The position numbers were made by a program, and so were the translations under genes. From Sthenelais limicola (lineage: Eukaryota > Annelida > Polychaeta > Phyllodocida > Sigalionidae), in assembly GCA_942159475.1 (NCBI GenBank), contig OW804097.1:2211357-2275356 (forward strand): DNA of 64,000 nt, given 5' to 3'. The notes beneath the pieces were generated by a model. The model had not been told where the DNA came from and did no database searches. It was given only the letters and a program-made list of their open reading frames with translations. Every line of letters begins with the position of its first letter. Position 1 is the first letter of the stretch. Shown here piece after piece: positions 16,426 through 53,600 of this stretch.

Positions 16426-16740
16426 CTGAAATGAAGGTTAATAGTGTTGTAAGTGTAAGAATAATTTATTTGGTCAAGACTGCTCTGCAAAACAGACAAG
16501 GCCAGAAGTATTTAGTCTATTTTGCCCACCATGTTGAGATTGATTACCAACCAGACAGGTTGGCGTTTATTAATAAATGTGTTGAACATTAGTAACTCAA
16601 TTCATTCTATGAATGGTGACTTTTGTGTTCCCAGCATTCTGTGTGGCGCGACTGTTGTAAGTTCTCTAATGAAAGCACTGTTTGTATTATTTAGAAAGCA
16701 ACTTCATACATGACAGTAATAACAGTACATGAATCTAATA

Positions 16741-17094: not shown

Positions 17095-17609
17095 ATGGGG
17101 TGCGGCTCTTCCACCTCTGAACATCCTCCCTCCACCATCCAGGATGATAAACATCTCCTGGACAATAAGAAACACAGGAAGGTACGGCCTGGGTTTGGGC
17201 TGAGAGACCCGTGCAAGAAGCAGGTCATAGAATATGTGCCTGACCACAAGGATGTCACGCCGGGAGACAAGCAACCTCCTCCACCCGACTACAATGAGAA
17301 CCCGGAGAACGAGGTTGAGGATGACATGAAGACAGAGGTAGCAGAAACTATAGCTGACAAGGATCATCTGAGGGATGACTTGGCCAGCTTGGTGAGTGAG
17401 AAGGAAGAGGAGGAAGAGGATGTAAGAGATGAGGCACCTGCTCCTCCAGCTCCTCTTATAAGAAGTGAGGAGGATGTGGAGAGGGTGGAGGTGGTGGTAG
17501 GGGAGGAGGAGGAGATAGAGGAGATAGGAGGGAACAGCGATGAAGAGTCGGCCACATTTGTTAACACTGATAAGACCATGGGTAGAATCATCACTACGTT
17601 TGACTTCAG
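17095..17609 (+). CDS. Calpain exon 1: lipidation motif and acidic region
   Basis: Encodes residues 1-171 plus two bases. MGCGSS is followed by basic stretches and then a Glu/Asp-rich segment (residues about 100-155, with EKEEEEEDV and EEEEIEEI) broken by a Pro/Ala patch. Donor CAG|GTGGGT, phase 2. Confidence 0.85.
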
Positions 17610-20600: not shown

Positions 20601-23600
20601 CACGGGTCCTACCAGGGCTGCTGGTCCGGTAACACCAGCTATGCATTCATCACGATGACGGGCGGCATGTCTGAGTTCCTGGACCAGGCTCAAATGGCCG
20701 CCAGCAAGAACCTGCGGACCAGGATGAAGAACGCACTCAACTGTGGTGCTGTGGTCGCCTGCAGTGTCCCAAATGTAAGGACATCGGTCTCTGTTTGTAA
20801 CAATCTTAATAAAGTTGAGTTTTCATTGTCTGATTCATTTCATAAAAGATTATTGTGGAAGATTTTTTTCTACATCATTGTGTATTTTGCTTTGCCCAGA
20901 ACAATGACAGTAAGAATGGGTTGGTGGGAAACCATGCCTACAGCGTGACGGCCTTGTGCAAGGTGAGTGACAACATCAGTACCTAATAATAATCTCCAGC
21001 ATGAAGAAGGATATAATTATGATCAATTAAAGATATATGTAAGATATTCAATTACTTTTTTAGAAATCTGAAGGTTGTGCTTCCCAGATCAGCAAAGATC
21101 ACAAATTCTATTATATAGTGTCAAGTTTGGTGGAATTAACTTCCCACCAAAGCTCACAAATATGAAGCCTTGCAAACTACATTGATAAATTGTCTGCCAC
21201 CTAACTGTATTATTTTAATACTATTTTCTAAATCTGTCATCAATACTGAAAAATTCTCACCACTTTTATGTCACACTATATTGCCTTACCTACATAGTTT
21301 CTTATAGTTTCTATTAGTTCTGTAGCATGGCATGCACTGGAAGACCAGATTCTAAAACTAAAGACCAATACCAAAGTTATAATCTCTTAGTCTTGCAATG
21401 AAAGAGTTTATTACTATTATTATGATTATTATGATTATATTGTATCTTACAAGTGTGCATCAATATCCACTCATCTTGTTAGTAAACTTGAGGTTCTGAT
21501 GCTACCTGATGATTTATTCATGGCTGCATGTATGTAGGTGCCATACCAGTCCAAGATGGTGTCCCTGATCAGGATACGCAATCCGTGGGGCAGTGCTAAG
21601 GGGGAGTGGACAGGCGCCTGGTCTGATGGGGCACCACAGTGGAACGATGTGCCAGATGACATCAAGCAAACATTAGAAGGTGGGACATCAATGGCATCTT
21701 TAAACATGTTTGATGAATTTGTGTGTAACTTTTGTTATATTTCAATGAATTGTGTTGTAATTTTAATGCTGTTATAAATCTATACCAAGTTAGATCAGTC
21801 TGACACTTGTAGTGTACAGCGTGATAACAGTGTGTGCTAATATAGACTAAGAAGAGAATCTTACTGGAGCTATGCTACTATTTCAAACAGTTTACGAGAG
21901 TATAGAGTAGTTATAATAAGACATAATGAACAGAGAATGACCGTTATATTACAGTAAAGAGTGAGGGGGATGTTCTACAGTAATTCTACAGTATTGTGTA
22001 GTTATAGTAAGACATTATAAAACAGTGAGTGACCGTTATATCATAGTAAAGAGTGAGGGGGATGTTCTACAGTATTGTTTAGTCATAATAAGCCATACAG
22101 TGAATGACCGTTATATTACAGTAAAGAGTGAGGGGGATGTTATACAGTGTAGTTATAATAAGCCATACAGTGAGTGACCGTTATATTACAGTAAAGAGTG
22201 AGGGGGATGTTCTACAATATTGTGTAGTTATAATAAGCCATACAGTGAATGACCGTTATGTTACAGTAAAGAGTGAGGGGGATGTTCTACAGTATAGTGT
22301 AGTTTTAATAAGCCATACAGTGAATGACCGTTATATTACAGTAAAGAGTGAAGGGGATGTTCTACAGTATAGTTTAGTTATAATAAGCCATACAGTGAGT
22401 GACCGTTATATTACAGTAAAGAGTGAGGGGGATGTTCTACAGTATAGTGTAGTTATAATAAGCCATACAGTGAATGACCGTTATATTACAGTAAAGAGTG
22501 AGGGGGATGTTCTATAGTATAGTGTAGTTATAATAAGCCATACAGTGAATGACCGTTATGTTACAGTAAAGAGTGAGGGGGATGTTCTACAGTATTGTTT
22601 AGTTATAATAAGCCATACAGTGAATGACCGTTATATTACAGTAAAGAGTGAGGGGGATGTTCTACAGTATAGTGTAGTTATAATAAGCCATACAGTGAAT
22701 GACTGTTATGTTACAGTAAAGAGTGAGGGGGATGTTCTACAGTATAGTTTAGTTATAATAAGCCATACAGTGAATGACTGTTATGTTACAGTAAAGAGTG
22801 AGGGGGATGTTCTACAGTATAGTTTAGTTATAATAAGCCATACAGTGAATGACTGTTATGTTACAGTAAAGAGTGAGGGGGATGTTCTACAGTATTGTTT
22901 AGTTATAATAAGCCATACAGTGAGTGACCGTTATGTTACAGTAAAGAGTGAGGGGGATGTTCTACAGTTTAGTTATAATAAGTCATACAGTGAATGACCG
23001 TTATGTTACAGTAAAGAGTGAGGGGGATGTTCTACAGTATTGTGTAGTTATAATAAGACATACAGTGAATGACTGTTATATTACAGTAAAGAGTGAGGGG
23101 GATGTTCTACAGTATTGTTTAGTTATAATAAGCCATACAGTGAATGACCGTTATGTTACAGTAAAGAGTGGGGGGGATGTTCTACAGTATTGTTTAGTTA
23201 TAATAAGCCATACAGTGAATGACTGTTATGTTACAGTAAAGAGTGAGGGGGATGTTCTACAGTATAGTTTAGTTATAATAAGCCATACAGTGAGTGACCG
23301 TTATATTACAGTAAAGAGTGAGGGGGATATTCTACAGTATTGTTTAGTTATAATAAGCCATACAGTGAGTGACCGTTATGTTACAGTAAAGAGTGAGGGG
23401 GATGTTCTACAGTATAGTTTAGTTATAATAAGCCATACAGTGAGTGACCGTTATATTACAGTAAAGAGTGAGGGGGATGTTCTACAGTATTGTGTAGTTA
23501 TAATAAGCCATACAGTGAATGACTGTTATATTACAGTAAAGAGTGAGGGGGATGTTCTACAGTATAGTTTAGTTATAATAAGCCATACAGTGAATGACCG

Positions 23601-26600
23601 TTATATTACAGTAAAGAGTGAGGGGGGTGTTCTACAGTATAGTTTAGTTATAATAAGCCATACAGTGAATGACCGTTATGTTACAGTAAAGAGTGAGGGG
23701 GATGTTCTACAGTATAGTTTAGTTATAATAAGACACACAGTGAATGACCGTTATGTTACAGTAAAGAGTGAGGGGGTTGTTCTACAGTATAGTTTAGTTA
23801 TAATAAGCCATACAGTGAATGACCGTTATATTACAGTAAAGAGTGAGGGGGATGTTCTACAGTATAGTTTAGTTATAATAAGCCATACAGTGAATGACCG
23901 TTATATTACAGTAAAGAGTGAGGGGGATGTTCTACAGTATTGTTTAGTTATTTATAATAAGCCATACAGTGAATGACCGTTATATTACAGTAAAGAGTGA
24001 GGGGGATGTTCTACAGTATTGTTTAGTTATAATAAGCCATACAGTGAATGACCGTTATATTACAGTAAAGAGTGAGGGGGATGTTCTACAGTATAGTGTA
24101 GTTATAATAAGCCATACAGTGAATGACTGTTATATTACAGTAAAGAGTGAGGGGGATGTTCTACAGTATTGTTTAGTTATAATAAGACATACAGTGAGTG
24201 ACCGTTATATTACAGTAAATAGTGAGGGGGATGTTCTACAGTATAGTTTAGTTATAATAAGCCATACAGTGAATGACCGTTATGTTACAGTAAAGAGTGA
24301 GGGGGATGTTCTACAGTATAGTTTAGTTATAATAAGACACACAGTGAATGACCGTTATGTTACAGTAAAGAGTGAGGGGGTTGTTCTACAGTATAGTTTA
24401 GTTATAATAAGACATACAGTGAGTGACCGTTATATTACAGTAAATAGTGAGGGGGATGTTCTACAGTATAGTTTAGTTATAATAAGCCATACAGTGAATG
24501 ACCGTTATATTACAGTAAAGAGTGAGGGGGATGTTCTACAGTATTGTGTAGTTATAATAAGCCATACAGTGAGTGACCGTTATGTTACAGTAAAGAGTGA
24601 GGGGGATGTTCTACAGTATAGTTTAGTTATAATAAGCCATACAGTGAATGACCGTTATATTACAGTAAAGAGTGAGGGGGATGTTCTACAGTATTGTTAG
24701 TTATAATAAGCCATACAGTGAATGACCGTTATATTACAGTAAAGAGTGAGGGGGATGTTCTACAGTATTGTATAGTTATAATAAGCCATACAGTGAGTGA
24801 CCGTTATATTACAGTAAAGAGTGAGGGGGATGTTCTACAGTATAGTTTAGTTATAATAAGCCATACAGTGAATGATTGTTATGTTACAGTAAAGAGTGAG
24901 GGGGATGTTCTACAGTATAGTGTAGTTATAATAAGCCATACAGTGAATGACTGTTATGTTACAGTAAAGAGTGAGGGGGATGTTCTACAGTATAGTGTAG
25001 TTATAATAAGCCATACAGTGAATGACTGTTATGTTACAGTAAAGAGTGAGGGGGATGTTCTACAGTATAGTGTAGTTATAATAAGCCATACAGTGAATGA
25101 CTGTTATGTTACAGTAAAGAGTGAGGGGGATGTTCTACAGTATAGTGTAGTTATAATAAGCCATACAGTGAATGACTGTTATGTTACAGTAAAGAGTGAG
25201 GGGGATGTTCTACAGTATAGTGTAGTTATAATAAGCCATACAGTGAGTGACCGTTATATTACAGTAAAGAGTGAGGGGGATGTTCTACAGTATTGTTTAG
25301 TTATAATAAGCCATACAGTGAGTGACCGTTATATTACAGTAAAGAGTGAGGGGGATGTTCTACAGTATTGTGTAGTTATAATAAGCCATACAGTGAGTGA
25401 CCGTTATAATACAGTAAAGAGTGAGGGGGATGTTCTACAGTATTGTTTAGTTATAATAAGCCATACAGTGAGTGACCGTTATATTACAGTAAAGAGTGAG
25501 GGGGATGTTCTACAGTATAGTGTAGTTATAATAAGCCATACAGTGAGTAACCGTTATATTACAGTAAAGAGTGAGGGGGATGTTCTACAGTATAGTTTAG
25601 TTATAATAAGCCATACAGTGAGTAACCGTTATATTACAGTAAAGAGTGAGGGGGATGTTCTACAGTATAGTTTAGTTATAATAAGCCATACAGTGAATGA
25701 CCGTTATATTACAGTAAAGAGTGAGGGGGATGTTCTACAGTATAGTTTAGTTATAATAAGCCATACAGTGAGTGACCGTTATATTACAGTAAAGAGTGAG
25801 GGGGATGTTCTACAGTATAGTGTAGTTATAATAAGCCATACAGTGAATGACCGTTATATTACAGTAAAGAGTGAGGGGGATGTTCTACAGTATTGTTTAG
25901 TTATAATAAGCCATACAGTGAGTGACCGTTATGTTACAGTAAAGAGTGAGGGGGATGTTCTACAGTATAGTTTAGTTATAATAAGCCATACAGTGAGTGA
26001 CCGTTATATTACAGTAAAGAGTGAGGGGGATGTTCTACAGTATTGTTAGTTATAATAAGCCATACAGTGAATGACTGTTATGTTACGGTAAAGAGTGAGG
26101 GGGATGTTCTACAGTATTGTGTAGTTATAATAAGCCATACAGTGAGTGACCGTTATGTTACAGTAAAGAGTGAGGGGGATGTTCTACAGTATTGTTAGTT
26201 ATAATAAGCCATACAGTGAATGACCGTTATATTACAGTAAAGAGTGAGGGGGATGTTCTACAGTATTGTTAGTTATAATAAGCCATACAGTGAATGACTG
26301 TTATGTTACGGTAAAGAGTGAGGGGGATGTTCTACAGTATTGTGTAGTTATAATAAGCCATACAGTGAGTGACCGTTATATTACAGTAAAGAGTGAAGGG
26401 GATGTTCTACAGTATTGTGTAGTTATAATAAGCCATACAGTGAGTGACCGTTATGTTACAGTAAAGAGTGAGGGGGATGTTCTACAGTATAGTGTAGTTA
26501 TAATAAGCCATACAGTGAGTGACCGTTATATTACAGTAAAGAGTGAGGGGGATGTTCTACAGTGTAGTTATAATAAGCCATACAGTGAATGACTGTTATG

Positions 26601-29600
26601 TTACAGTAAAGAGTGAGGGGGATGTTCTACAGTATAGTTTAGTTATAATAAGCCATACAGTGAGTGACCGTTATGTTACAGTAAAGAGTGAGGGGGATGT
26701 TCTACAGTGTAGTTATAATAAGCCATACAGTGAATGACTGTTATGTTACAGTAAAGAGTGAGGGGGATGTTCTACAGTATTGTTTAGTTATAATAAGCCA
26801 TACAGTGAGTGACCGTTATATTACAGTAAAGAGTGAGGGGGATGTTCTACAGTATAGTTTAGTTATAATAAGCCATACAGTGAGTGACCGTTATATTACA
26901 GTAAAGAGTGAGGGGGATGTTCTACAGTATCCTTTAGTTATAATAAGCCATACAGTGAGTGACCGTTATATTACAGTAAAGAGTGAGGGGGATGTTCTAC
27001 AGTATTGTTTAGTTATAATAAGCCATACAGTGAGTGACCGTTATGTTACAGTAAAGAATGAGGGGGATGTTCTACAGTATTGTGTAGTTATAATAAGACA
27101 TACAGTGAGTGACCGTTATGTTACAGTAAAGAGTGAGGGGGATGTTCTACAGTTTAGTTATAATAAGTCATACAGTGAATGACCGTTATAATACAGTAAA
27201 GAGTGAGGGGGATGTTCTACAGTATTGTTTAGTTATAATAAGCCATACAGTGAATGACCGTTATATTACAGTAAAGAGTGAGGGGGATGTTCTACAGTAT
27301 TGTGTAGTTATAATAAGACATACAGTGAATGACTGTTATATTACAGTAAAGAGTGAGGGGGATGTTCTACAGTATTGTTTAGTTATAATAAGCCATACAG
27401 TGAATGACCGTTATGTTACAGTAAAGAGTGAGGGGGGTGTTCTACAGTATTGTTTAGTTATAATAAGCCATACAGTGAATGACCGTTATGTTACAGTAAA
27501 GAGTGAGGGGGATGTTCTACAGTATTGTTTAGTTATAATAAGCCATACAGTGAATGACTGTTATATTACAGTAAAGAGTGAGGGGGATGTTCTACAGTAT
27601 TGTGTAGTTATAATAAGACATACAGTGAGTGACCGTTATGTTACAGTAAAGAGTGAGGGGGATGTTCTACAGTATTGTGTAGTTATAGTAAGCCATACAG
27701 TGAGTGACCGTTATGTTACAGTAAAGAGTGAGGGGGATGTTCTACAGTATTGTGTAGTTATAATAAGCCATACAGTGAGTGACCGTTATATTACAGTAAA
27801 GAGTGAGGGGGATGTTCTACAGTATTGTGTAGTTATAATAAGCCATACAGTGAATGACTGTTATATTACAGTAAAGAGTGAGGGGGATGTTCTACAGTAT
27901 TGTGTAGTTATAATAAGCCATACAGTGAGTGACCGTTATGTTACAGTAAAGAGTGAGGGGGATGTTCTACAGTATAGTTTAGTTATAATAAGCCATACAG
28001 TGAATGACCGTTATATTACAGTAAAGAGTGAAGGGGATGTTCTACAGTATTGTGTAGTTATAATAAGCCATACAGTGAGTGACCGTTATGTTACAGTAAA
28101 GAGTGAGGGGGATGTTCTACAGTATTGTGTAGTTATAATAAGCCATACAGTGAATGACTGTTATATTACAGTAAAGAGTGAGGGGGATGTTCTACAGTAT
28201 TGTGTTGTTATAATAAGCCATACAGTGAGTGACCGTTATGTTACAGTAAAGAGTGAGGGGGATGTTCTACAGTATAGATTAGTTATAATAAGCCATACAG
28301 TGAGTGACCGTTATATTACAGTAAAGAGTGAGGGGGATGTTCTACAGTATAGATTAGTTATAATAAGCCATACAGTGAGTGACCGTTATATTACAGTAAA
28401 GAGTGAGGGGGATGTTCTACAGCATTGTTTAGTTATAATAAGCCATACAGTGAGTGACCGTTATATTACAGTAAAGAGTGAGGGGGATGTTCTACAGTGA
28501 TCTTTAGTTATAATAAGCCATACAGTGAGTGACCGTTATATTACAGTAAAGAGTGAGGGGGATGTTCTACAGTATTCTTTAGTTATAATAAGCCATACAG
28601 TGAGTAACCGTTATAATACAGTAAAGAGTGAGGGGGATGTTCTACTGTATTGTGTAGTTATAATAAGCCATACAGTGAGTGACCGTTATGTTACAGTAAA
28701 GAGTGAGGGGGGTGTTCTACAGTATTGTTTAGTTATAATAAGCCATACAGTGAATGACCGTTATATTACAGTAAAGAGTGAGGTGGATGTTCTACAGTAT
28801 TGTGTAGTTATAATAAGCCATACAGTGAGTGACCGTTATATTACAGTAAAGAGTGAGGGGGATGTTCTACAGTATAGTTTAGTTATAATAAGCCATACAG
28901 TGAGTGACCGTTATATTACAGTAAAGAGTGAGGGGGATGTTCTACAGTATTGTGTAGTTATAATAAGCCATACAGTGAGTGACCGTTATGTTACAGTAAA
29001 GAGTGAGGGGGATGTTCTACAGTATTGTTCAGTTATAATAAGCCATACAGTGAGTGACCGTTATGTTACAGTAAAGAGTGAGGGGGATGTTCTACAGTAT
29101 TGTTTAGTTATAATAAGCCATACAGTGAGTGACCGTTATATTACAGTAAAGAGTGAGGGGGATGTTCTACAGTATAGTGTAGTTATAATAAGCCATACAG
29201 TGAATGACTGTTATATTACAGTAAAGAGTGAGGGGGATGTTCTACAGTATTGTTTAGTTATAATAAGCCATACAGTGAGTGACCGTTATATTACAGTAAA
29301 GAGTGAGGGGGATGTTCTACAGTATAGTTTAGTTATAATAAGCCATACAGTGAGTGACCGTTATATTACAGTAAAGAGTGAGGGGGATGTTCTACAGTAT
29401 AGTTATAATAAGCCATACAGTGAGTGACCGTTATATTACAGTAAAGAGTGAGGTGGATGTTCTACAGTATTGTGTAGTTATAATAAGCCATACAGTGAGT
29501 GACCGTTATAATACAGTAAAGAGTGAGGGGGATGTTCTACAGTATTGTTTAGTTATAATAAGCCATACAGTGAGTGACCGTTATGTTACAGTAAAGAGTG

Positions 29601-32600
29601 AGGGGGATGTTCTACAGTATTGTGTAGTTATAATAAGCCATACAGTGAATGACTGTTATGTTACGGTAAAGAGTGAGGGGGATGTTCTACAGTATTGTGT
29701 AGTTATAATAAGCCATACAGTGAATGACCGTTATATTACAGTAAAGAGTGAGGGGGATGTTCTACAGTATTGTGTAGTTATAATAAGCCATACAGTGAGT
29801 GACCGTTATGTTACAGTAAAGAGTGAGGGGGATGTTCTACAGTATTGTTTAGTTATTTATAATAAGACATACAGTGAATGACTGTTATATTACAGTAAAG
29901 AGTGAGGGGGATGTTCTACAGTATAGTGTAGTTATAATAAGCCATACAGTGAATGACTGTTATGTTACAGTAAAGAGTGAGGGGGATGTTCTACAGTATT
30001 GTGTAGTTATAATAAGCCATACAGTGAGTGACCGTTATATTACAGTAAAGAGTGAGGTGGATGTTCTACAGTATTGTGTAGTTATAATAAGACATACAGT
30101 GAGTGACCGTTATATTACAGTAAAGAGTGAGGGGGATGTTCTACAGTATTGTGTAGTTATAATAAGCCATACAGTGAGTGACCGTTATATTACAGTAAAG
30201 AGTGAGGGGGATGTTCTACAGTATTGTGTAGTTATAATAAGCCATACAGTGAGTGACCGTTATATTACAGTAAAGAGTGAGGGGGATGTTCTACAGTATA
30301 GTTTAGTTATAATAAGCCATACAGTGAGTGACCGTTATATTACAGTAAAGAGTGAGGGGGATGTTCTACAGTCTTGTGTAGTTATAATAAGCCATACAGT
30401 GAGTGACCGTTATATTACAGTAAAGAGTGAGGGGCATGTTCTACAGTATAGTTTAGTTATAATAAGCCATACAGTGAATGACCGTTATATTACAGTAAAG
30501 AGTGAGGGGGATGTTCTACAGTATTGTTAGTTATAATAAGCCATACAGTGAATGACTGTTATGTTACGGTAAAGAGTGAGGGGGATGTTCTACAGTATTG
30601 TGTAGTTATAATAAGCCATACAGTGAGTGACCGTTATATTACAGTAAAGAGTGAAGGGGATGTTCTACAGTATTGTGTAGTTATAATAAGCCATACAGTG
30701 AGTGACCGTTATGTTACAGTAAAGAGTGAGGGGGATGTTCTACAGTATAGTGTAGTTATAATAAGCCATACAGTGAGTGACCGTTATATTACAGTAAAGA
30801 GTGAGGGGGATGTTCTACAGTGTAGTTATAATAAGCCATACAGTGAATGACTGTTATGTTACAGTAAAGAGTGAGGGGGATGTTCTACAGTATAGTTTAG
30901 TTATAATAAGCCATACAGTGAGTGACCGTTATGTTACAGTAAAGAGTGAGGGGGATGTTCTACAGTGTAGTTATAATAAGCCATACAGTGAATGACTGTT
31001 ATGTTACAGTAAAGAGTGAGGGGGATGTTCTACAGTATTGTTTAGTTATAATAAGCCATACAGTGAGTGACCGTTATATTACAGTAAAGAGTGAGGGGGA
31101 TGTTCTACAGTATAGTTTAGTTATAATAAGCCATACAGTGAGTGACCGTTATATTACAGTAAAGAGTGAGGGGGATGTTCTACAGTATCCTTTAGTTATA
31201 ATAAGCCATACAGTGAGTGACCGTTATATTACAGTAAAGAGTGAGGGGGATGTTCTACAGTATTGTTTAGTTATAATAAGCCATACAGTGAGTGACCGTT
31301 ATGTTACAGTAAAGAATGAGGGGGATGTTCTACAGTATTGTGTAGTTATAATAAGACATACAGTGAGTGACCGTTATGTTACAGTAAAGAGTGAGGGGGA
31401 TGTTCTACAGTTTAGTTATAATAAGTCATACAGTGAATGACCGTTATAATACAGTAAAGAGTGAGGGGGATGTTCTACAGTATTGTTTAGTTATAATAAG
31501 CCATACAGTGAATGACCGTTATATTACAGTAAAGAGTGAGGGGGATGTTCTACAGTATTGTGTAGTTATAATAAGACATACAGTGAATGACTGTTATATT
31601 ACAGTAAAGAGTGAGGGGGATGTTCTACAGTATTGTTTAGTTATAATAAGCCATACAGTGAATGACCGTTATGTTACAGTAAAGAGTGAGGGGGGTGTTC
31701 TACAGTATTGTTTAGTTATAATAAGCCATACAGTGAATGACCGTTATGTTACAGTAAAGAGTGAGGGGGATGTTCTACAGTATTGTTTAGTTATAATAAG
31801 CCATACAGTGAATGACTGTTATATTACAGTAAAGAGTGAGGGGGATGTTCTACAGTATTGTGTAGTTATAATAAGACATACAGTGAGTGACCGTTATGTT
31901 ACAGTAAAGAGTGAGGGGGATGTTCTACAGTATTGTGTAGTTATAATAAGCCATACAGTGAGTGACCGTTATGTTACAGTAAAGAGTGAGGGGGATGTTC
32001 TACAGTATTGTGTAGTTATAATAAGCCATACAGTGAGTGACCGTTATATTACAGTAAAGAGTGAGGGGGATGTTCTACAGTATTGTGTAGTTATAATAAG
32101 CCATACAGTGAATGACTGTTATATTACAGTAAAGAGTGAGGGGGATGTTCTACAGTATTGTGTAGTTATAATAAGCCATACAGTGAGTGACCGTTATGTT
32201 ACAGTAAAGAGTGAGGGGGATGTTCTACAGTATAGTTTAGTTATAATAAGCCATACAGTGAATGACCGTTATATTACAGTAAAGAGTGAAGGGGATGTTC
32301 TACAGTATTGTGTAGTTATAATAAGCCATACAGTGAGTGACCGTTATGTTACAGTAAAGAGTGAGGGGGATGTTCTACAGTATTGTGTAGTTATAATAAG
32401 CCATACAGTGAATGACTGTTATATTACAGTAAAGAGTGAGGGGGATGTTCTACAGTATTGTGTTGTTATAATAAGCCATACAGTGAGTGACCGTTATGTT
32501 ACAGTAAAGAGTGAGGGGGATGTTCTACAGTATAGATTAGTTATAATAAGCCATACAGTGAGTGACCGTTATATTACAGTAAAGAGTGAGGGGGATGTTC

Positions 32601-35600
32601 TACAGTATAGATTAGTTATAATAAGCCATACAGTGAGTGACCGTTATATTACAGTAAAGAGTGAGGGGGATGTTCTACAGCATTGTTTAGTTATAATAAG
32701 CCATACAGTGAGTGACCGTTATATTACAGTAAAGAGTGAGGGGGATGTTCTACAGTGATCTTTAGTTATAATAAGCCATACAGTGAGTGACCGTTATATT
32801 ACAGTAAAGAGTGAGGGGGATGTTCTACAGTATTCTTTAGTTATAATAAGCCATACAGTGAGTAACCGTTATAATACAGTTAAGAGTGAGGGGGATGTTC
32901 TACTGTATTGTGTAGTTATAATAAGCCATACAGTGAGTGACCGTTATGTTACAGTAAAGAGTGAGGGGGGTGTTCTACAGTATTGTTTAGTTATAATAAG
33001 CCATACAGTGAATGACCGTTATATTACAGTAAAGAGTGAGGTGGATGTTCTACAGTATTGTGTAGTTATAATAAGCCATACAGTGAGTGACCGTTATATT
33101 ACAGTAAAGAGTGAGGGGGATGTTCTACAGTATAGTTTAGTTATAATAAGCCATACAGTGAGTGACCGTTATATTACAGTAAAGAGTGAGGGGGATGTTC
33201 TACAGTATTGTGTAGTTATAATAAGCCATACAGTGAGTGACCGTTATGTTACAGTAAAGAGTGAGGGGGATGTTCTACAGTATTGTTCAGTTATAATAAG
33301 CCATACAGTGAGTGACCGTTATGTTACAGTAAAGAGTGAGGGGGATGTTCTACAGTATTGTTTAGTTATAATAAGCCATACAGTGAGTGACCGTTATATT
33401 ACAGTAAAGAGTGAGGGGGATGTTCTACAGTATAGTGTAGTTATAATAAGCCATACAGTGAATGACTGTTATATTACAGTAAAGAGTGAGGGGGATGTTC
33501 TACAGTATTGTTTAGTTATAATAAGCCATACAGTGAGTGACCGTTATATTACAGTAAAGAGTGAGGGGGATGTTCTACAGTATAGTTTAGTTATAATAAG
33601 CCATACAGTGAGTGACCGTTATATTACAGTAAAGAGTGAGGGGGATGTTCTACAGTATAGTTATAATAAGCCATACAGTGAGTGACCGTTATATTACAGT
33701 AAAGAGTGAGGTGGATGTTCTACAGTATTGTGTAGTTATAATAAGCCATACAGTGAGTGACCGTTATAATACAGTAAAGAGTGAGGGGGATGTTCTACAG
33801 TATTGTTTAGTTATAATAAGCCATACAGTGAGTGACCGTTATGTTACAGTAAAGAGTGAGGGGGATGTTCTACAGTATTGTGTAGTTATAATAAGCCATA
33901 CAGTGAATGACTGTTATGTTACGGTAAAGAGTGAGGGGGATGTTCTACAGTATTGTGTAGTTATAATAAGCCATACAGTGAATGACCGTTATATTACAGT
34001 AAAGAGTGAGGGGGATGTTCTACAGTATTGTGTAGTTATAATAAGCCATACAGTGAGTGACCGTTATGTTACAGTAAAGAGTGAGGGGGATGTTCTACAG
34101 TATTGTTTAGTTATTTATAATAAGACATACAGTGAATGACTGTTATATTACAGTAAAGAGTGAGGGGGATGTTCTACAGTATAGTGTAGTTATAATAAGC
34201 CATACAGTGAATGACTGTTATGTTACAGTAAAGAGTGAGGGGGATGTTCTACAGTATTGTGTAGTTATAATAAGCCATACAGTGAGTGACCGTTATATTA
34301 CAGTAAAGAGTGAGGTGGATGTTCTACAGTATTGTGTAGTTATAATAAGACATACAGTGAGTGACCGTTATATTACAGTAAAGAGTGAGGGGGATGTTCT
34401 ACAGTATTGTGTAGTTATAATAAGCCATACAGTGAGTGACCGTTATATTACAGTAAAGAGTGAGGGGGATGTTCTACAGTATAGTTTAGTTATAATAAGC
34501 CATACAGTGAGTGACCGTTATATTACAGTAAAGAGTGAGGGGGATGTTCTACAGTCTTGTGTAGTTATAATAAGCCATACAGTGAGTGACCGTTATATTA
34601 CAGTAAAGAGTGAGGGGCATGTTCTACAGTATAGTTTAGTTATAATAAGCCATACAGTGAATGACCGTTATATTACAGTAAAGAGTGAGGGGGATGTTCT
34701 ACAGTATTGTTAGTTATAATAAGCCATACAGTGAATGACCGTTATATTACAGTAAAGAGTGAGGGGGATGTTCTACAGTATTGTATAGTTATAATAAGCC
34801 ATACAGTGAGTGACCGTTATATTACAGTAAAGAGTGAGGGGGATGTTCTACAGTATAGTTTAGTTATAATAAGCCATACAGTGAATGACTGTTATGTTAC
34901 AGTAAAGAGTGAGGGGGATGTTCTACAGTATAGTGTAGTTATAATAAGCCATACAGTGAATGACTGTTATGTTACAGTAAAGAGTGAGGGGGATGTTCTA
35001 CAGTATAGTGTAGTTATAATAAGCCATACAGTGAATGACTGTTATGTTACAGTAAAGAGTGAGGGGGATGTTCTACAGTATAGTGTAGTTATAATAAGCC
35101 ATACAGTGAATGACTGTTATGTTACAGTAAAGAGTGAGGGGGATGTTCTACAGTATAGTGTAGTTATAATAAGCCATACAGTGAGTGACCGTTATATTAC
35201 AGTAAAGAGTGAGGGGGATGTTCTACAGTATTGTTTAGTTATAATAAGCCATACAGTGAGTGACCGTTATATTACAGTAAAGAGTGAGGGGGATGTTCTA
35301 CAGTATTGTGTAGTTATAATAAGCCATACAGTGAGTGACCGTTATAATACAGTAAAGAGTGAGGGGGATGTTCTACAGTATTGTTTAGTTATAATAAGCC
35401 ATACAGTGAGTGACCGTTATATTACAGTAAAGAGTGAGGGGGATGTTCTACAGTATAGTGTAGTTATAATAAGCCATACAGTGAGTAACCGTTATATTAC
35501 AGTAAAGAGTGAGGGGGATGTTCTACAGTATAGTTTAGTTATAATAAGCCATACAGTGAGTAACCGTTATATTACAGTAAAGAGTGAGGGGGATGTTCTA

Positions 35601-41600: not shown

Positions 41601-44600
41601 TGAGTGACCGTTATATTACAGTAAAGAGTGAGGGGGATGTTCTACAGTATAGTTTAGTTATAATAAGCCATACAGTGAGTGACCGTTATATTACAGTAAA
41701 GAGTGAGGGGGATGTTCTACAGTATAGTTATAATAAGCCATACAGTGAGTGACCGTTATATTACAGTAAAGAGTGAGGTGGATGTTCTACAGTATTGTGT
41801 AGTTATAATAAGCCATACAGTGAATGACCGTTATATTACAGTAAAGAGTGAGGGGGATGTTCTACAGTATTGTGTAGTTATAATAAGCCATACAGTGAGT
41901 GACCGTTATGTTACAGTAAAGAGTGAGGGGGATGTTCTACAGTATTGTTTAGTTATTTATAATAAGACATACAGTGAATGACTGTTATATTACAGTAAAG
42001 AGTGAGGGGGATGTTCTACAGTATAGTGTAGTTATAATAAGCCATACAGTGAATGACTGTTATGTTACAGTAAAGAGTGAGGGGGATGTTCTACAGTATT
42101 GTGTAGTTATAATAAGCCATACAGTGAGTGACCGTTATATTACAGTAAAGAGTGAGGTGGATGTTCTACAGTATTGTGTAGTTATAATAAGACATACAGT
42201 GAGTGACCGTTATATTACAGTAAAGAGTGAGGGGGATGTTCTACAGTATTGTGTAGTTATAATAAGCCATACAGTGAGTGACCGTTATATTACAGTAAAG
42301 AGTGAGGGGGATGTTCTACAGTATAGTTTAGTTATAATAAGCCATACAGTGAGTGACCGTTATATTACAGTAAAGAGTGAGGGGGATGTTCTACAGTCTT
42401 GTGTAGTTATAATAAGCCATACAGTGAGTGACCGTTATATTACAGTAAAGAGTGAGGGGCATGTTCTACAGTATAGTTTAGTTATAATAAGCCATACAGT
42501 GAATGACCGTTATATTACAGTAAAGAGTGAGGGGGATGTTCTACAGTATAGTGTAGTTATAATAAGCCATACAGTGAATGACTGTTATGTTACAGTAAAG
42601 AGTGAGGGGGATGTTCTACAGTATAGCGTAGTTATAATAAGCCATACAGTGAATGACTGTTATGTTACAGTAAAGAGTGAGGGGGATGTTCTACAGTATA
42701 GTGTAGTTATAATAAGCCATACAGTGAATGACTGTTATGTTACAGTAAAGAGTGAGGGGGATGTTCTACAGTATAGTGTAGTTATAATAAGCCATACAGT
42801 GAATGACTGTTATGTTACAGTAAAGAGTGAGGGGGATGTTCTACAGTATAGTGTAGTTATAATAAGCCATACAGTGAGTGACCGTTATATTACAGTAAAG
42901 AGTGAGGGGGATGTTCTACAGTATTGTTTAGTTATAATAAGCCATACAGTGAGTGACCGTTATATTACAGTAAAGAGTGAGGGGGATGTTCTACAGTATT
43001 GTGTAGTTATAATAAGCCATACAGTGAGTGACCGTTATAATACAGTAAAGAGTGAGGGGGATGTTCTACAGTATTGTTTAGTTATAATAAGCCATACAGT
43101 GAGTAACCGTTATATTACAGTAAAGAGTGAGGGGGATGTTCTACAGTATAGTTTAGTTATAATAAGCCATACAGTGAGTAACCGTTATATTACAGTAAAG
43201 AGTGAGGGGGATGTTCTACAGTATAGTTTAGTTATAATAAGCCATACAGTGAATGACCGTTATATTACAGTAAAGAGTGAGGGGGATGTTCTACAGTATA
43301 GTTTAGTTATAATAAGCCATACAGTGAATGACTGTTATGTTACAGTAAAGAGTGAGGGGGATGTTCTACAGTATTGTGTAGTTATAATAAGCCATACAGT
43401 GAGTGACCGTTATATTACAGTAAAGAGTGAGGTGGATGTTCTACAGTATTGTGTAGTTATAATAAGACATACAGTGAGTGACCGTTATATTACAGTAAAG
43501 AGTGAGGGGGATGTTCTACAGTATTGTGTAGTTATAATAAGCCATACAGTGAGTGACCGTTATATTACAGTAAAGAGTGAGGGGGATGTTCTACAGTATA
43601 GTTTAGTTATAATAAGCCATACAGTGAGTGACCGTTATATTACAGTAAAGAGTGAGGGGGATGTTCTACAGTCTTGTGTAGTTATAATAAGCCATACAGT
43701 GAGTGACCGTTATATTACAGTAAAGAGTGAGGGGCATGTTCTACAGTATAGTTTAGTTATAATAAGCCATACAGTGAATGACCGTTATATTACAGTAAAG
43801 AGTGAGGGGGATGTTCTACAGTATAGTGTAGTTATAATAAGCCATACAGTGAATGACTGTTATGTTACAGTAAAGAGTGAGGGGGATGTTCTACAGTATA
43901 GCGTAGTTATAATAAGCCATACAGTGAATGACTGTTATGTTACAGTAAAGAGTGAGGGGGATGTTCTACAGTATAGTTTAGTTATAATAAGCCATACAGT
44001 GAATGACTGTTATGTTACAGTAAAGAGTGAGGGGGATGTTCTACAGTATAGTGTAGTTATAATAAGCCATACAGTGAATGACTGTTATGTTACAGTAAAG
44101 AGTGAGGGGGATGTTCTACAGTATAGTGTAGTTATAATAAGCCATACAGTGAGTGACCGTTATATTACAGTAAAGAGTGAGGGGGATGTTCTACAGTATT
44201 GTTTAGTTATAATAAGCCATACAGTGAGTGACCGTTATATTACAGTAAAGAGTGAGGGGGATGTTCTACAGTATTGTGTAGTTATAATAAGCCATACAGT
44301 GAGTGACCGTTATAATACAGTAAAGAGTGAGGGGGATGTTCTACAGTATTGTTTAGTTATAATAAGCCATACAGTGAGTAACCGTTATATTACAGTAAAG
44401 AGTGAGGGGGATGTTCTACAGTATAGTTTAGTTATAATAAGCCATACAGTGAGTAACCGTTATATTACAGTAAAGAGTGAGGGGGATGTTCTACAGTATA
44501 GTTTAGTTATAATAAGCCATACAGTGAATGACCGTTATATTACAGTAAAGAGTGAGGGGGATGTTCTACAGTATAGTTTAGTTATAATAAGCCATACAGT

Positions 44601-47600
44601 GAGTGACCGTTATATTACAGTAAAGAGTGAGGGGGATGTTCTACAGTATAGTGTAGTTATAATAAGCCATACAGTGAATGACCGTTATATTACAGTAAAG
44701 AGTGAGGGGGATGTTCTACAGTATAGTTTAGTTATAATAAGCCATACAGTGAGTAACCGTTATATTACAGTAAAGAGTGAGGGGGATGTTCTACAGTATA
44801 GTTTAGTTATAATAAGCCATACAGTGAATGACCGTTATATTACAGTAAAGAGTGAGGGGGATGTTCTACAGTATAGTTTAGTTATAATAAGCCATACAGT
44901 GAGTGACCGTTATATTACAGTAAAGAGTGAGGGGGATGTTCTACAGTATAGTGTAGTTATAATAAGCCATACAGTGAATGACCGTTATATTACAGTAAAG
45001 AGTGAGGGGGATGTTCTACAGTATTGTTTAGTTATAATAAGCCATACAGTGAGTGACCGTTATGTTACAGTAAAGAGTGAGGGGGATGTTCTACAGTATA
45101 GATTAGTTATAATAAGCCATACAGTGAGTGACCGTTATATTACAGTAAAGAGTGAGGGGGATGTTCTACAGTATAGATTAGTTATAATAAGCCATACAGT
45201 GAGTGACCGTTATATTACAGTAAAGAGTGAGGGGGATGTTCTACAGCATTGTTTAGTTATAATAAGCCATACAGTGAGTGACCGTTATATTACAGTAAAG
45301 AGTGAGGGGGATGTTCTACAGTGATCTTTAGTTATAATAAGCCATACAGTGAGTGACCGTTATATTACAGTAAAGAGTGAGGGGGATGTTCTACAGTATT
45401 CTTTAGTTATAATAAGCCATACAGTGAGTAACCGTTATAATACAGTAAAGAGTGAGGGGGATGTTCTACTGTATTGTGTAGTTATAATAAGCCATACAGT
45501 GAGTGACCGTTATGTTACAGTAAAGAGTGAGGGGGGTGTTCTACAGTATTGTTTAGTTATAATAAGCCATACAGTGAATGACCGTTATATTACAGTAAAG
45601 AGTGAGGTGGATGTTCTACAGTATTGTGTAGTTATAATAAGCCATACAGTGAGTGACCATTATATTACAGTAAAGAGTGAGGGGGATGTTCTACAGTATA
45701 GTTTAGTTATAATAAGCCATACAGTGAGTGACCGTTATATTACAGTAAAGAGTGAGGGGGATGTTCTACAGTATTGTGTAGTTATAATAAGCCATACAGT
45801 GAGTGACCGTTATGTTACAGTAAAGAGTGAGGGGGATGTTCTACAGTATTGTTTAGTTATAATAAGCCATACAGTGAGTGACCGTTATGTTACAGTAAAG
45901 AGTGAGGGGGATGTTCTACAGTATTGTTTAGTTATAATAAGCCATACAGTGAGTGACCGTTATATTACAGTAAAGAGTGAGGGGGATGTTCTACAGTATA
46001 GTGTAGTTATAATAAGCCATACAGTGAATGACTGTTATATTACAGTAAAGAGTGAGGGGGATGTTCTACAGTATTGTTTAGTTATAATAAGCCATACAGT
46101 GAGTGACCGTTATATTACAGTAAAGAGTGAGGGGGATGTTCTACAGTATAGTTTAGTTATAATAAGCCATACAGTGAGTGACCGTTATATTACAGTAAAG
46201 AGTGAGGGGGATGTTCTACAGTATAGTTATAATAAGCCATACAGTGAGTGACCGTTATATTACAGTAAAGAGTGAGGTGGATGTTCTACAGTATTGTGTA
46301 GTTATAATAAGCCATACAGTGAGTGACCGTTATAATACAGTAAAGAGTGAGGGGGATGTTCTACAGTATTGTTTAGTTATAATAAGCCATACAGTGAGTG
46401 ACCGTTATGTTACAGTAAAGAGTGAGGGGGATGTTCTACAGTATTGTGTAGTTATAATAAGCCATACAGTGAATGACTGTTATGTTACGGTAAAGAGTGA
46501 GGGGGATGTTCTACAGTATTGTGTAGTTATAATAAGCCATACAGTGAATGACCGTTATATTACAGTAAAGAGTGAGGGGGATGTTCTACAGTATTGTGTA
46601 GTTATAATAAGCCATACAGTGAGTGACCGTTATGTTACAGTAAAGAGTGAGGGGGATGTTCTACAGTATTGTTTAGTTATTTATAATAAGACATACAGTG
46701 AATGACTGTTATATTACAGTAAAGAGTGAGGGGGATGTTCTACAGTATAGTGTAGTTATAATAAGCCATACAGTGAATGACTGTTATGTTACAGTAAAGA
46801 GTGAGGGGGATGTTCTACAGTATTGTGTAGTTATAATAAGCCATACAGTGAGTGACCGTTATATTACAGTAAAGAGTGAGGTGGATGTTCTACAGTATTG
46901 TGTAGTTATAATAAGACATACAGTGAGTGACCGTTATATTACAGTAAAGAGTGAGGGGGATGTTCTACAGTATTGTGTAGTTATAATAAGCCATACAGTG
47001 AGTGACCGTTATATTACAGTAAAGAGTGAGGGGGATGTTCTACAGTATAGTTTAGTTATAATAAGCCATACAGTGAGTGACCGTTATATTACAGTAAAGA
47101 GTGAGGGGGATGTTCTACAGTCTTGTGTAGTTATAATAAGCCATACAGTGAGTGACCGTTATATTACAGTAAAGAGTGAGGGGCATGTTCTACAGTATAG
47201 TTTAGTTATAATAAGCCATACAGTGAATGACCGTTATATTACAGTAAAGAGTGAGGGGGATGTTCTACAGTATAGTGTAGTTATAATAAGCCATACAGTG
47301 AATGACTGTTATGTTACAGTAAAGAGTGAGGGGGATGTTCTACAGTATAGTGTAGTTATAATAAGCCATACAGTGAATGACTGTTATGTTACAGTAAAGA
47401 GTGAGGGGGATGTTCTACAGTATAGTGTAGTTATAATAAGCCATACAGTGAATGACTGTTATGTTACAGTAAAGAGTGAGGGGGATGTTCTACAGTATAG
47501 TGTAGTTATAATAAGCCATACAGTGAATGACTGTTATGTTACAGTAAAGAGTGAGGGGGATGTTCTACAGTATAGTGTAGTTATAATAAGCCATACAGTG

Positions 47601-50600
47601 AGTGACCGTTATATTACAGTAAAGAGTGAGGGGGATGTTCTACAGTATTGTTTAGTTATAATAAGCCATACAGTGAGTGACCGTTATATTACAGTAAAGA
47701 GTGAGGGGGATGTTCTACAGTATTGTGTAGTTATAATAAGCCATACAGTGAGTGACCGTTATAATACAGTAAAGAGTGAGGGGGATGTTCTACAGTATTG
47801 TTTAGTTATAATAAGCCATACAGTGAGTAACCGTTATATTACAGTAAAGAGTGAGGGGGATGTTCTACAGTATAGTTTAGTTATAATAAGCCATACAGTG
47901 AGTAACCGTTATATTACAGTAAAGAGTGAGGGGGATGTTCTACAGTATAGTTTAGTTATAATAAGCCATACAGTGAATGACCGTTATATTACAGTAAAGA
48001 GTGAGGGGGATGTTCTACAGTATAGTTTAGTTATAATAAGCCATACAGTGAGTGACCGTTATATTACAGTAAAGAGTGAGGGGGATGTTCTACAGTATAG
48101 TGTAGTTATAATAAGCCATACAGTGAATGACCGTTATATTACAGTAAAGAGTGAGGGGGATGTTCTACAGTATAGTTTAGTTATAATAAGCCATACAGTG
48201 AGTAACCGTTATATTACAGTAAAGAGTGAGGGGGATGTTCTACAGTATAGTTTAGTTATAATAAGCCATACAGTGAATGACCGTTATATTACAGTAAAGA
48301 GTGAGGGGGATGTTCTACAGTATAGTTTAGTTATAATAAGCCATACAGTGAGTGACCGTTATATTACAGTAAAGAGTGAGGGGGATGTTCTACAGTATAG
48401 TGTAGTTATAATAAGCCATACAGTGAATGACCGTTATATTACAGTAAAGAGTGAGGGGGATGTTCTACAGTATTGTTTAGTTATAATAAGCCATACAGTG
48501 AGTGACCGTTATGTTACAGTAAAGAGTGAGGGGGATGTTCTACAGTATAGTTTAGTTATAATAAGCCATACAGTGAGTGACCGTTATATTACAGTAAAGA
48601 GTGAGGGGGATGTTCTACAGTATTGTTAGTTATAATAAGCCATACAGTGAATGACTGTTATGTTACGGTAAAGAGTGAGGGGGATGTTCTACAGTATTGT
48701 GTAGTTATAATAAGCCATACAGTGAGTGACCGTTATGTTACAGTAAAGAGTGAGGGGGATGTTCTACAGTATTGTTAGTTATAATAAGCCATACAGTGAA
48801 TGACTGTTATGTTACGGTAAAGAGTGAGGGGGATGTTCTACAGTATTGTGTAGTTATAATAAGCCATACAGTGAGTGACCGTTATATTACAGTAAAGAGT
48901 GAAGGGGATGTTCTACAGTATTGTGTAGTTATAATAAGCCATACAGTGAGTGACCGTTATGTTACAGTAAAGAGTGAGGGGGATGTTCTACAGTATAGTG
49001 TAGTTATAATAAGCCATACAGTGAGTGACCGTTATATTACAGTAAAGAGTGAGGGGGATGTTCTACAGTGTAGTTATAATAAGCCATACAGTGAATGACT
49101 GTTATGTTACAGTAAAGAGTGAGGGGGATGTTCTACAGTATAGTTTAGTTATAATAAGCCATACAGTGAATGACTGTTATGTTACAGTAAAGAGTGAGGG
49201 GGATGTTCTACAGTATAGTTTAGTTATAATAAGCCATACAGTGAGTGACCGTTATATTACAGTAAAGAGTGAGGGGGATGTTCTACAGTGTAGTTATAAT
49301 AAGCCATACAGTGAATGACTGTTATGTTACAGTAAAGAGTGAGGGGGATGTTCTACAGTATAGTTTAGTTATAATAAGCCATACAGTGAGTGACCGTTAT
49401 GTTACAGTAAAGAGTGAGGGGGATGTTCTACAGTGTAGTTATAATAAGCCATACAGTGAATGACTGTTATGTTACAGTAAAGAGTGAGGGGGATGTTCTA
49501 CAGTATTGTTTAGTTATAATAAGCCATACAGTGAGTGACCGTTATATTACAGTAAAGAGTGAGGGGGATGTTCTACAGTATAGTTTAGTTATAATAAGCC
49601 ATACAGTGAGTGACCGTTATATTACAGTAAAGAGTGAGGGGGATGTTCTACAGTATTCTTTAGTTATAATAAGCCATACAGTGAGTGACCGTTATATTAC
49701 AGTAAAGAGTGAGGGGGATGTTCTACAGTATTGTTTAGTTATAATAAGCCATACAGTGAGTGACCGTTATGTTACAGTAAAGAATGAGGGGGATGTTCTA
49801 CAGTATTGTGTAGTTATAATAAGCCATACAGTGAGTGACCGTTATGTTACAGTAAAGAGTGAGGGGGATGTTCTACAGTTTAGTTATAATAAGTCATACA
49901 GTGAATGACCGTTATAATACAGTAAAGAGTGAGGGGGATGTTCTACAGTATTGTTTAGTTATAATAAGCCATACAGTGAATGACCGTTATATTACAGTAA
50001 AGAGTGAGGGGGATGTTCTACAGTATTGTGTAGTTATAATAAGACATACAGTGAATGACTGTTATATTACAGTAAAGAGTGAGGGGGATGTTCTACAGTA
50101 TTGTTTAGTTATAATAAGCCATACAGTGAATGACCGTTATGTTACAGTAAAGAGTGAGGGGGGTGTTCTACAGTATTGTTTAGTTATAATAAGCCATACA
50201 GTGAATGACCGTTATGTTACAGTAAAGAGTGAGGGGGATGTTCTACAGTATTGTTTAGTTATAATAAGCCATACAGTGAATGACTGTTATATTACAGTAA
50301 AGAGTGAGGGGGATGTTCTACAGTATTGTGTAGTTATAATAAGACATACAGTGAGTGACCGTTATGTTACAGTAAAGAGTGAGGGGGATGTTCTACAGTA
50401 TTGTGTAGTTATAATAAGCCATACAGTGAGTGACCGTTATGTTACAGTAAAGAGTGAGGGGGATGTTCTACAGTATTGTGTAGTTATAATAAGCCATACA
50501 GTGAGTGACCGTTATATTACAGTAAAGAGTGAGGGGGATGTTCTACAGTATTGTGTAGTTATAATAAGCCATACAGTGAATGACTGTTATATTACAGTAA

Positions 50601-53600
50601 AGAGTGAGGGGGATGTTCTACAGTATTGTGTAGTTATAATAAGCCATACAGTGAGTGACCGTTATGTTACAGTAAAGAGTGAGGGGGATGTTCTACAGTA
50701 TAGTTTAGTTATAATAAGCCATACAGTGAATGACCGTTATATTACAGTAAAGAGTGAAGGGGATGTTCTACAGTATTGTGTAGTTATAATAAGCCATACA
50801 GTGAGTGACCGTTATGTTACAGTAAAGAGTGAGGGGGATGTTCTACAGTATTGTGTAGTTATAATAAGCCATACAGTGAATGACCGTTATATTACAGTAA
50901 AGAGTGAGGGGGATGTTCTACAGTATTGTGTAGTTATAATAAGCCATACAGTGAGTGACCGTTATGTTACAGTAAAGAGTGAGGGGGATGTTCTACAGTA
51001 TAGATTAGTTATAATAAGCCATACAGTGAGTGACCGTTATATTACAGTAAAGAGTGAGGGGGATGTTCTACAGTATAGATTAGTTATAATAAGCCATACA
51101 GTGAGTGACCGTTATATTACAGTAAAGAGTGAGGGGGATGTTCTACAGCATTGTTTAGTTATAATAAGCCATACAGTGAGTGACCGTTATATTACAGTAA
51201 AGAGTGAGGGGGATGTTCTACAGTATTCTTTAGTTATAATAAGCCATACAGTGAGTAACCGTTATAATACAGTAAAGAGTGAGGGGGATGTTCTACTGTA
51301 TTGTGTAGTTATAATAAGCCATACAGTGAATGACCGTTATATTACAGTAAAGAGTGAGGGGGATGTTCTACTGTATTGTGTAGTTATAATAAGCCATACA
51401 GTGAATGACCGTTATATTACAGTAAAGAGTGAGGGGGATGTTCTACAGTTAGTTATAATAAGCCATACAGTGAGTGACCGTTATGTTACAGTAAAGAGTG
51501 AGGGGGGTGTTCTACAGTATTGTTTAGTTATAATAAGCCATACAGTGAATGACCGTTATATTACAGTAAAGAGTGAGGTGGATGTTCTACAGTATTGTGT
51601 AGTTATAATAAGCCATACAGTGAGTGACCGTTATATTACAGTAAAGAGTGAGGGGGATGTTCTACAGTATAGTTTAGCTATAATAAGCCATACAGTGAGT
51701 GACCGTTATATTACAGTAAAGAGTGAGGGGGATGTTCTACAGTATAGTGTAGTTATAATAAGCCATACAGTGAATGACTGTTATATTACAGTAAAGAGTG
51801 AGGGGGATGTTCTACAGTATTGTTTAGTTATAATAAGCCATACAGTGAGTGACCGTTATATTACAGTAAAGAGTGAGGGGGATGTTCTACAGTATAGTTT
51901 AGTTATAATAAGCCATACAGTGAGTGACCGTTATATTACAGTAAAGAGTGAGGGGCATGTTCTACAGTGTAGTGTAGTTATAATAAGCCATACAGTGAGT
52001 GACCGTTATATTACAGTAAAGAGTGAGGTGGATGTTCTACAGTATTGTGTAGTTATAATAAGCCATACAGTGAATGACCGTTATATTACAGTAAAGAGTG
52101 AGGGGGATGTTCTACAGTATTGTGTAGTTATAATAAGCCATACAGTGAGTGACCGTTATGTTACAGTAAAGAGTGAGGGGGATGTTCTACAGTATTGTTT
52201 AGTTATTTATAATAAGACATACAGTGAATGACTGTTATATTACAGTAAAGAGTGAGGGGGATGTTCTACAGTATAGTGTAGTTATAATAAGCCATACAGT
52301 GAATGACTGTTATGTTACAGTAAAGAGTGAGGGGGATGTTCTACAGTATTGTGTAGTTATAATAAGCCATACAGTGAGTGACCGTTATATTACAGTAAAG
52401 AGTGAGGTGGATGTTCTACAGTATTGTGTAGTTATAATAAGACATACAGTGAGTGACCGTTATATTACAGTAAAGAGTGAGGGGGATGTTCTACAGTATT
52501 GTGTAGTTATAATAAGCCATACAGTGAGTGACCGTTATATTACAGTAAAGAGTGAGGGGGATGTTCTACAGTATAGTTTAGTTATAATAAGCCATACAGT
52601 GAGTGACCGTTATATTACAGTAAAGAGTGAGGGGGATGTTCTACAGTATTGTGTAGTTATAATAAGCCATACAGTGAGTGACCGTTATATTACAGTAAAG
52701 AGTGAGGGGCATGTTCTACAGTATAGTTTAGTTATAATAAGCCATACAGTGAGTGACCGTTATAATACAGTAAAGAGTGAGGGGGATGTTCTACAGTATA
52801 GTTTAGTTATAATAAGCCATACAGTGAGTGACCGTTATAATACAGTAAAGAGTGAGGGGGATGTTCTACAGTATAGTTTAGTTATAATAAGCCATACAGT
52901 GAATGACCGTTATGTTACAGTAAAGAGTGAGGGGGATGTTCTACAGTATTGTTTAGTTATAATAAGCCATACAGTGAGTGACCGTTATATTACAGTAAAG
53001 AGTGAGGGGGATGTTCTACAGTATTGTGTAGTTATAATAAGCCATACAGTGAGTGACCGTTATATTACAGTAAAGAGTGAGGGGGATGTTCTATAGTATA
53101 GTTATAATAAGCCATACAGTGAGTGACCGTTATATTACAGTAAAGAGTGAGGGGGATGTTCTACAGTATTGTGTAGTTATAATAAGCCATACAGTGAATG
53201 ACCGTTATATTACAGTAAAGAGTGAGGGGGATGTTCTACAGTATAGTGTAGTTATAATAAGCCATACAGTGAGTGACCGTTATATTACAGTAAAGAGTGA
53301 GGGGGATGGAGAGTTCTGGATGACAACCAAGGACTACATGAAGAGCTTCACATCCACCACCATCTGTAACTTCACACCAGATGCTGATGGGGACGGGGAC
53401 GCAGACCAGCTGGGTGAGTCCTACATCATCATTGCATTATATTCATATTATGTCATGTTTTGACTTTTTTAGGCTCATAGGCATATTGAGATGGATATTT
53501 ACAGTATATATTACCCAGACCACCAATTTGATAAAGATAACTGCACCACTATGATTTGTAAAGCACATGATCAAAGTTAAGTTATGAACGTTTCCCACAA

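Follow-up and report, generated by a model that had tools for sequence, protein, structure and literature searches.

The window analysed here, 64,000 bp of the forward strand of contig OW804097.1 (positions 2,211,357 to 2,275,356; assembly GCA_942159475.1) of the annelid Sthenelais limicola, carries a gene identified by sequence comparison as a calpain (Peptidase_C2) gene, named gene A. It is one of four calpain genes arranged in tandem on the contig, at about 17-58 (A), 72-90 (B), 115-134 (C) and 151-177 kb (D) in window coordinates, which are used throughout. Intron 7 of gene A is occupied by a satellite whose units copy the acceptor edge of exon 8; these copies are called decoys hereafter. 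The exons of gene A and the array are positioned as follows:

17095..17609, plus strand: exon 1, with the start codon at 17095; open frame
18250..18400, plus strand: exon 2; open frame
18701..18832, plus strand: exon 3; open frame
19120..19316, plus strand: exon 4; open frame
20597..20774, plus strand: exon 5; open frame
20900..20962, plus strand: exon 6; open frame
21538..21679, plus strand: exon 7, ending ...GAAG|GTGGGA and encoding the motif IRNPWG; open frame and homology
21899..22074, plus strand: left edge of the array with longer units of 92 bp, resembling the left edge of the array in C (92 bp) and the 95-bp unit of D
21955..53290, plus strand: satellite (mirage) array of 419 decoy units, mostly of 75 bp, each starting with at most 18 exon 8 bases and ending with the acceptor
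53291..53413, plus strand: true exon 8, 123 bp, whose first 18 bp are the final partial unit of the array; open frame and homology
53729..53827, plus strand: exon 9, with no difference from paralogue C
54362..54459, plus strand: exon 10; open frame
55426..55640, plus strand: exon 11, with donor AAG|GTAAGT; open frame

Joined in silico at borders that are GT/AG throughout, exons 1 to 11 give 638 codons in an open frame. Peptidase_C2 matches at C4:2230476 and C4:2232891 correspond to exons 4 and 7, and among the matches listed (at least 120) the top named proteins are mostly molluscan calpains with about 40% identity. COX1 of the assembly, by contrast, points to a scale-worm-like annelid, with 94% identity to a Phyllodocida cluster and 90-91% to Alentiana and Branchipolynoe, scale worms of the Polynoidae. 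The junction between exons 7 and 8 is collinear with calpain-1 chains of PDB structures (phmmer E-value 8.6e-23 for one of them), supporting the start of exon 8 at position 53291. An earlier sequence-only reading of this DNA had described an intronic satellite made of the acceptor edge of calpain exon 8, a description borne out by the open frame, the homology and the repeat analysis.

Intron 7 spans positions 21680-53290 (31,611 bp) and the array takes up 31,336 bp of it, a share of 99.1% that agrees with the roughly 99% initially claimed. The tandem repeat analysis that the sequence-only reading had called for, carried out with Tandem Repeats Finder, reports a period of 75 bp and 419 copies with 95% matches at positions 21984-53308. 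Cyclic dynamic programming divides the sequence from position 21955 into 420 units, the last of which is the 18 bp opening exon 8, leaving 419 decoys for the approximately 418 copies proposed. Most decoys are 75 bp long (375) and the others measure 70 (22), 74 (14), 79 (6), 92 (1) and 69 bp (1). The unit joins 18 bases of exon 8 to the intron side of the acceptor, spanning the boundary like the units of mirages, the tandem copies of exon-intron boundaries described in amphioxus globins, with Adh3 cited as a further case (PMC3087553).

The AG dinucleotide is retained in 407 of the 419 decoys, confirming that hundreds of near-identical 3' splice sites lie ahead of the true one. The remaining 12 end in GG and belong to two unit types, with 9 and 3 copies, perhaps the product of one event that was later amplified. 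It had also been stated that the acceptor and the first 18 coding bases are repeated with no change. This holds for the consensus and fails unit by unit: all 18 exon bases are intact in 362 of the 419 decoys, but just 180 are identical to the true site from -14 to +18, 109 from -40 to +18, and 10 over all 75 bp (-57 to +18).

Among the units of the array, 84 distinct types can be told apart. Blocks as long as 21 units are repeated at spacings of, for example, 57 and 162 units, a sign of block duplication within the array. Tandem arrays are error-prone in assembly, and the real array could be far shorter than the assembled one. We regard such an artefact as very unlikely in view of the variety of unit types, of the lack of any N in the whole window and of the presence of three arrays of differing length at paralogous genes. 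The longest exact repeat inside the array is 1,641 bp, which a typical long read exceeds, making the assembled size plausible.

The regular 75-bp period could alternatively reflect a giant coding repeat forming part of an extended exon 8, with each unit read in frame as 25 amino acids. The two final 75-bp units are indeed open in the exon 8 frame, and the length of 376 of the 419 units is divisible by 3. The units of 70, 74 and 79 bp break the frame, and only 2 of the 419 acceptors reach the end of exon 8 in frame without a stop. A coding repeat is therefore ruled out except for the last two units, and its probability as an account of the array is negligible.

When the entire assembly was searched with the 75-bp unit, four of five candidate places received a score and the listed results did not include the window; matches outside the window lay on the same contig only, downstream of it. 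The decoys preceding exon 8 number 419 in A, 104 in C, 18 in B and 2 in D. All of those in B and C keep the AG (18/18 and 104/104), and the left edge of the B array has an additional degenerate copy without it. The two D units are decayed, one of them without AG, and are found 6.7-6.8 kb upstream of exon 8 of that gene. Intron 7 of D also contains 187-bp direct repeats (161167-161353 and 166378-166564) that are 99.5% identical and 5.2 kb apart, probably marking a recent insertion that parted the D decoys from exon 8. The consensus of the 75-nt unit is identical in A, B and C, and variants at several columns are common to them. Copy number thus changes between paralogues (419/104/18/2) along with homogenisation, seen in the common consensus and in the blocks of up to 21 units, and the BflGb6 mirage of amphioxus is likewise homogenised and variable in copy number (PMC3087553).

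Variable columns amount to 9 of 18 in the exon-derived part of the A units, 22 of 42 in the other intronic part and 8 of 15 in the acceptor (4, 6 and 2 in B; 5, 19 and 6 in C). Mean diversity of the exon-derived part is lower than that of the two other parts in A (0.0147 against 0.048 and 0.064) and in C (0.0084 against 0.047 and 0.055). In B it is not clearly lower (0.0285 against 0.047 and 0.020). The pattern is dominated by a few old variants and is no clear sign of constraint on the decoys.

The decoys of gene D are informative on the origin of the unit. Over the 27 nt that open exon 8, the first one is 93% identical to the exon and has bases that the 75-bp unit lacks. Together with the 92-bp units at the left end of both the A and the C array, this indicates that the exon edge was the source and that the 75-bp unit was trimmed and amplified later. 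In A, B and C, but not in D, the intron is satellite-like also at distances beyond about 35 bp from the true acceptor; in these three genes we therefore count this acceptor, with the six opening codons of exon 8, as part of the satellite. The position of the true acceptor within satellite sequence in A, B and C would also be expected if the satellite had existed first and exon 8 had taken its acceptor from it. This reverse order of events is highly improbable, given the 27 nt of exon 8 coding sequence in the D decoy, the homology of the exon 8 start to solved calpains and the confinement of the unit, among the candidate places scored, to this stretch of the contig. The array would rather have started when a segment spanning the boundary of intron 7 and exon 8 was duplicated in tandem in an ancestral calpain gene, the oldest unit seen being about 95 bp with 27 exon bases. 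The unit would next have been trimmed to 75 bp and amplified, growing presumably by recombination, and then homogenised through exchange among the tandem paralogues.

Evidence for exchange comes from the distribution of differences between paralogues around the arrays. In the last 80 intron bases before the true exon 8 there is one difference between A and B and one between A and C, and beyond base 18 of exon 8 A and B differ at 22 of 105 positions. Past the right end of the array, the first 360 bp are the same in A and C; the next steps of about 120 bp hold 1, 0, 1, 1, 2, 2, 3, 2 and 0 differences, and later ones 3 to 10 each. To the left, 16 of the 144 positions directly adjoining the array differ, and each 300 bp of the 1.2 kb further out holds 5 to 14 differences. 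Exons 8 and 9 of the two genes are identical over 222 bp, against 48 differences in the 1,915 bp of all eleven exons. This gradient points to exchange between paralogues anchored at the array. When the A, B and C arrays are compared, no run of at least three units in common order is found, which argues against recent wholesale copying of an array and indicates that the arrays have turned over since the exchange.

Comparison of the 638 codons of A and C gives a ratio of nonsynonymous to synonymous divergence (dN/dS) of 0.029 (dS 0.116, dN 0.0033; 43 synonymous and 5 nonsynonymous differences), as expected of a calpain sequence under purifying selection despite the 419 and 104 decoys. Seen beside its sister genes, gene A has apparently kept its function in the presence of hundreds of sites resembling the true acceptor.

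Copied exon edges are present at four other exons of gene A, and all 11 decoys at these exons would lead to a stop if used:

18519..18744, plus strand: 83-bp x 2.7 array, two decoys of the acceptor edge of exon 3, upstream of the true exon (18701)
19284..19737, plus strand: 69-bp x 6.6 array, six decoys of the donor edge of exon 4, downstream of the true exon
20506..20626, plus strand: 64-bp x 1.9 array, one decoy of the acceptor edge of exon 5, upstream of the true exon (20597)
55232..55479, plus strand: 92-bp x 2.7 array, two decoys of the acceptor edge of exon 11, upstream of the true exon (55426)

Over the whole cluster, an edge copy within 1.5 kb was scored by script, as a match crossing the edge, for 12 of 36 exons (5/10 in A, 3/10 in C, 2/8 in B and 2/8 in D; exons 2 to 11, except 5 and 6 in B and D). 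Elsewhere in the assembly, 17 stretches with other calpain loci were inspected, covering 56 exon matches (37 + 19) of the 63 Peptidase_C2 matches outside the cluster. They yield one clear case, in an unlinked calpain gene on another contig:

L040:7655-7964 (G000:C5, from 122279100): 38-bp x 8.1 array of tandem acceptor-edge copies, at an exon that seems to be the counterpart of exon 5 of A

One weak donor copy was seen by eye at locus L037, and a candidate at L029 was rejected as a 75% match between two exons rather than an edge copy. The contrast between the cluster and the other loci is descriptive, since the tests differ in detail (crossing of the edge being scored by script in the cluster alone), the first nine stretches were picked for compactness and the paralogues are not independent.

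Further repeats lie near gene A. Those at 16736-17055 (56-bp x 5.9) and 56745-56983 (13-bp x 18.5) end within about 20 bp of the acceptors of exons 1 and 14 with no exon bases copied, and a 4-kb pyrimidine-rich array (3807-7854, about 17 bp x 241) is found upstream of the first coding exon. A further partial calpain copy between B and C (104004-107981) has matches to exons 1-5 and one copy of the exon 4 donor edge. The exon 1 regions of B and D (about 72.4-76.2 and 151.4-154.7 kb) have open stretches of 1,216 and 1,038 codons rich in KDELRDELRGEV-like charged repeats, which are absent from exon 1 of A and C.

Duplicated splice sites were reportedly studied by Reed and Maniatis in 1986, and Adh mirages by Canestro in 2002. 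The satellites in the gigantic introns of Drosophila kl-3 and kl-5 are simple repeats not known to derive from splice sites. These introns are likewise satellite-rich and need splicing, and differ from calpain intron 7 by their megabase size (PMC6508621). Closer to the calpain arrays are the amphioxus mirages, to which PGBD5 and troponin C were added (PMC3902484): in Adh3, BflGb6/BflGb9, troponin C and PGBD5, minisatellite-like copies of boundaries with splice signals are found at acceptors or donors. The BflGb6 mirage has 3 or 6 units of 150-160 bp (PMC3087553) against the 419, mostly 75-bp units of A, and, unlike the amphioxus mirages, the calpain arrays differ in size across tandem paralogues with exchange between them and reside in an annelid rather than a lancelet. 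In number of copied splice sites the A array is matched by the variable number tandem repeat (VNTR) of human ABCA7 intron 18, whose units contain the exon 18 donor, whose largest form has about 427 units (10.7 kb) and whose length is associated with exon skipping (PMC5954066). That VNTR differs by its 25-bp unit, by copying a donor with GT as the first two bases of the unit, no exon piece being reported, and by being polymorphic in people (PMC5954066). Splice-site regions are also copied within a gene in intron gain by tandem genomic duplication, which creates a new intron (PMC4974935), whereas the calpain gene gains copies of a boundary and its existing intron lengthens.

The sequence-only reading knew of no described case with this number of cloned acceptors. 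Relatives do exist in the amphioxus mirages and the ABCA7 VNTR; the literature searched, mostly non-subscription papers, contained neither an acceptor array as large as this one nor a case of paralogues exchanging such arrays, a negative that is weak evidence given this coverage. Mirages in annelids were not found either, those in the papers searched being from lancelets only, although the narrow annelid query was a weak test. The kind of structure is thus already known, if rare, and what is new is the scale of the acceptor array, the annelid host, the ladder of paralogues and the takeover of a working acceptor.

With the structure of the array, its exon origin, the exchange between paralogues and the purifying selection taken as established, we favour as the probable explanation of the whole an extreme mirage whose true exon 8 is chosen by exon definition. 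The decoys, with no more than 18-27 bases of exon each, would mostly be ignored by the spliceosome because the last acceptor alone is followed by exon 8 in its full length of 123 nt and by the exon 8 donor. Use of 417 of the 419 A decoys would result in a frameshift or a stop, and only the last two would extend exon 8 in frame. In amphioxus mirages, reverse transcription-polymerase chain reaction suggested regular splicing (PMC3087553).

Several points weigh against this explanation. With ten decoys matching the true site throughout -57 to +18, nothing local upstream marks the latter. Every unit has a possible donor at +53, a feature absent from the sequence-only reading (GTGAGT in 250 and GTGAAT in 169 of the 419); GTGAGT at this position is within the top 3.8% of intronic GTs and the GT at +6 in the top 2%, rough percentages since they come from a small home-made matrix and background introns that themselves hold copied edges. 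Donor-like sites within the units mean that exon definition alone would permit short pseudo-exons, predicted for the +53 donor to be 53 nt long and frame-shifting. No RNA hairpin hiding the decoys stood out in the two stretches folded (z 0.40 and -0.05), and Rfam has no match in the window at gathering scores. The idea of a weak exon 8 acceptor, the weakest one when exon 8 alone is left out of the matrix, was dropped because leave-one-exon-out scoring places it fourth lowest of 14 exons. Finally, the donor VNTR of human ABCA7 does disturb splicing (PMC5954066).

The decoys might then be used appreciably, 53-nt pseudo-exons, one-unit extensions and exon 8 skipping reducing correct calpain mRNA as copy number grows. 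The AG of 407 decoys, the consensus-like donor 53 nt past the acceptor in 250 units, the restriction of in-frame extension to the last two decoys, and the correlation of ABCA7 VNTR length with exon 19 skipping and lower expression (PMC5954066) would fit such an effect. The strong purifying selection between A and C, the normal splicing reported for amphioxus mirages (PMC3087553) and the distance of just 22 nt from pseudo-donor to next acceptor in the 75-bp unit speak against it, and we consider appreciable use of the decoys unlikely. Equally doubtful is a broader proposition, in which the working acceptor and first six codons of exon 8 in three paralogues would themselves be a unit of the satellite, continually overwritten as 541 non-coding copies exchange sequence with it. 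Turnover rather than point mutation would then set a splice site and part of a protein, and the 2/18/104/419 ladder would act on mRNA output via hundreds of pseudo-exons.

The calpain cluster constitutes a natural experiment in splice-site choice, as sister genes in a single genome carry one acceptor edge with 2, 18, 104 or 419 additional copies upstream of the same exon. Transcription would reach the decoys before the true site, which lies up to 31 kb further on. With the decoys made first, a rule by which the first acceptor made wins predicts failure, and recognition of the whole exon predicts clean junctions. The exchange of satellite sequence extends into coding sequence, and the arrays extend mirages from lancelets to an annelid.

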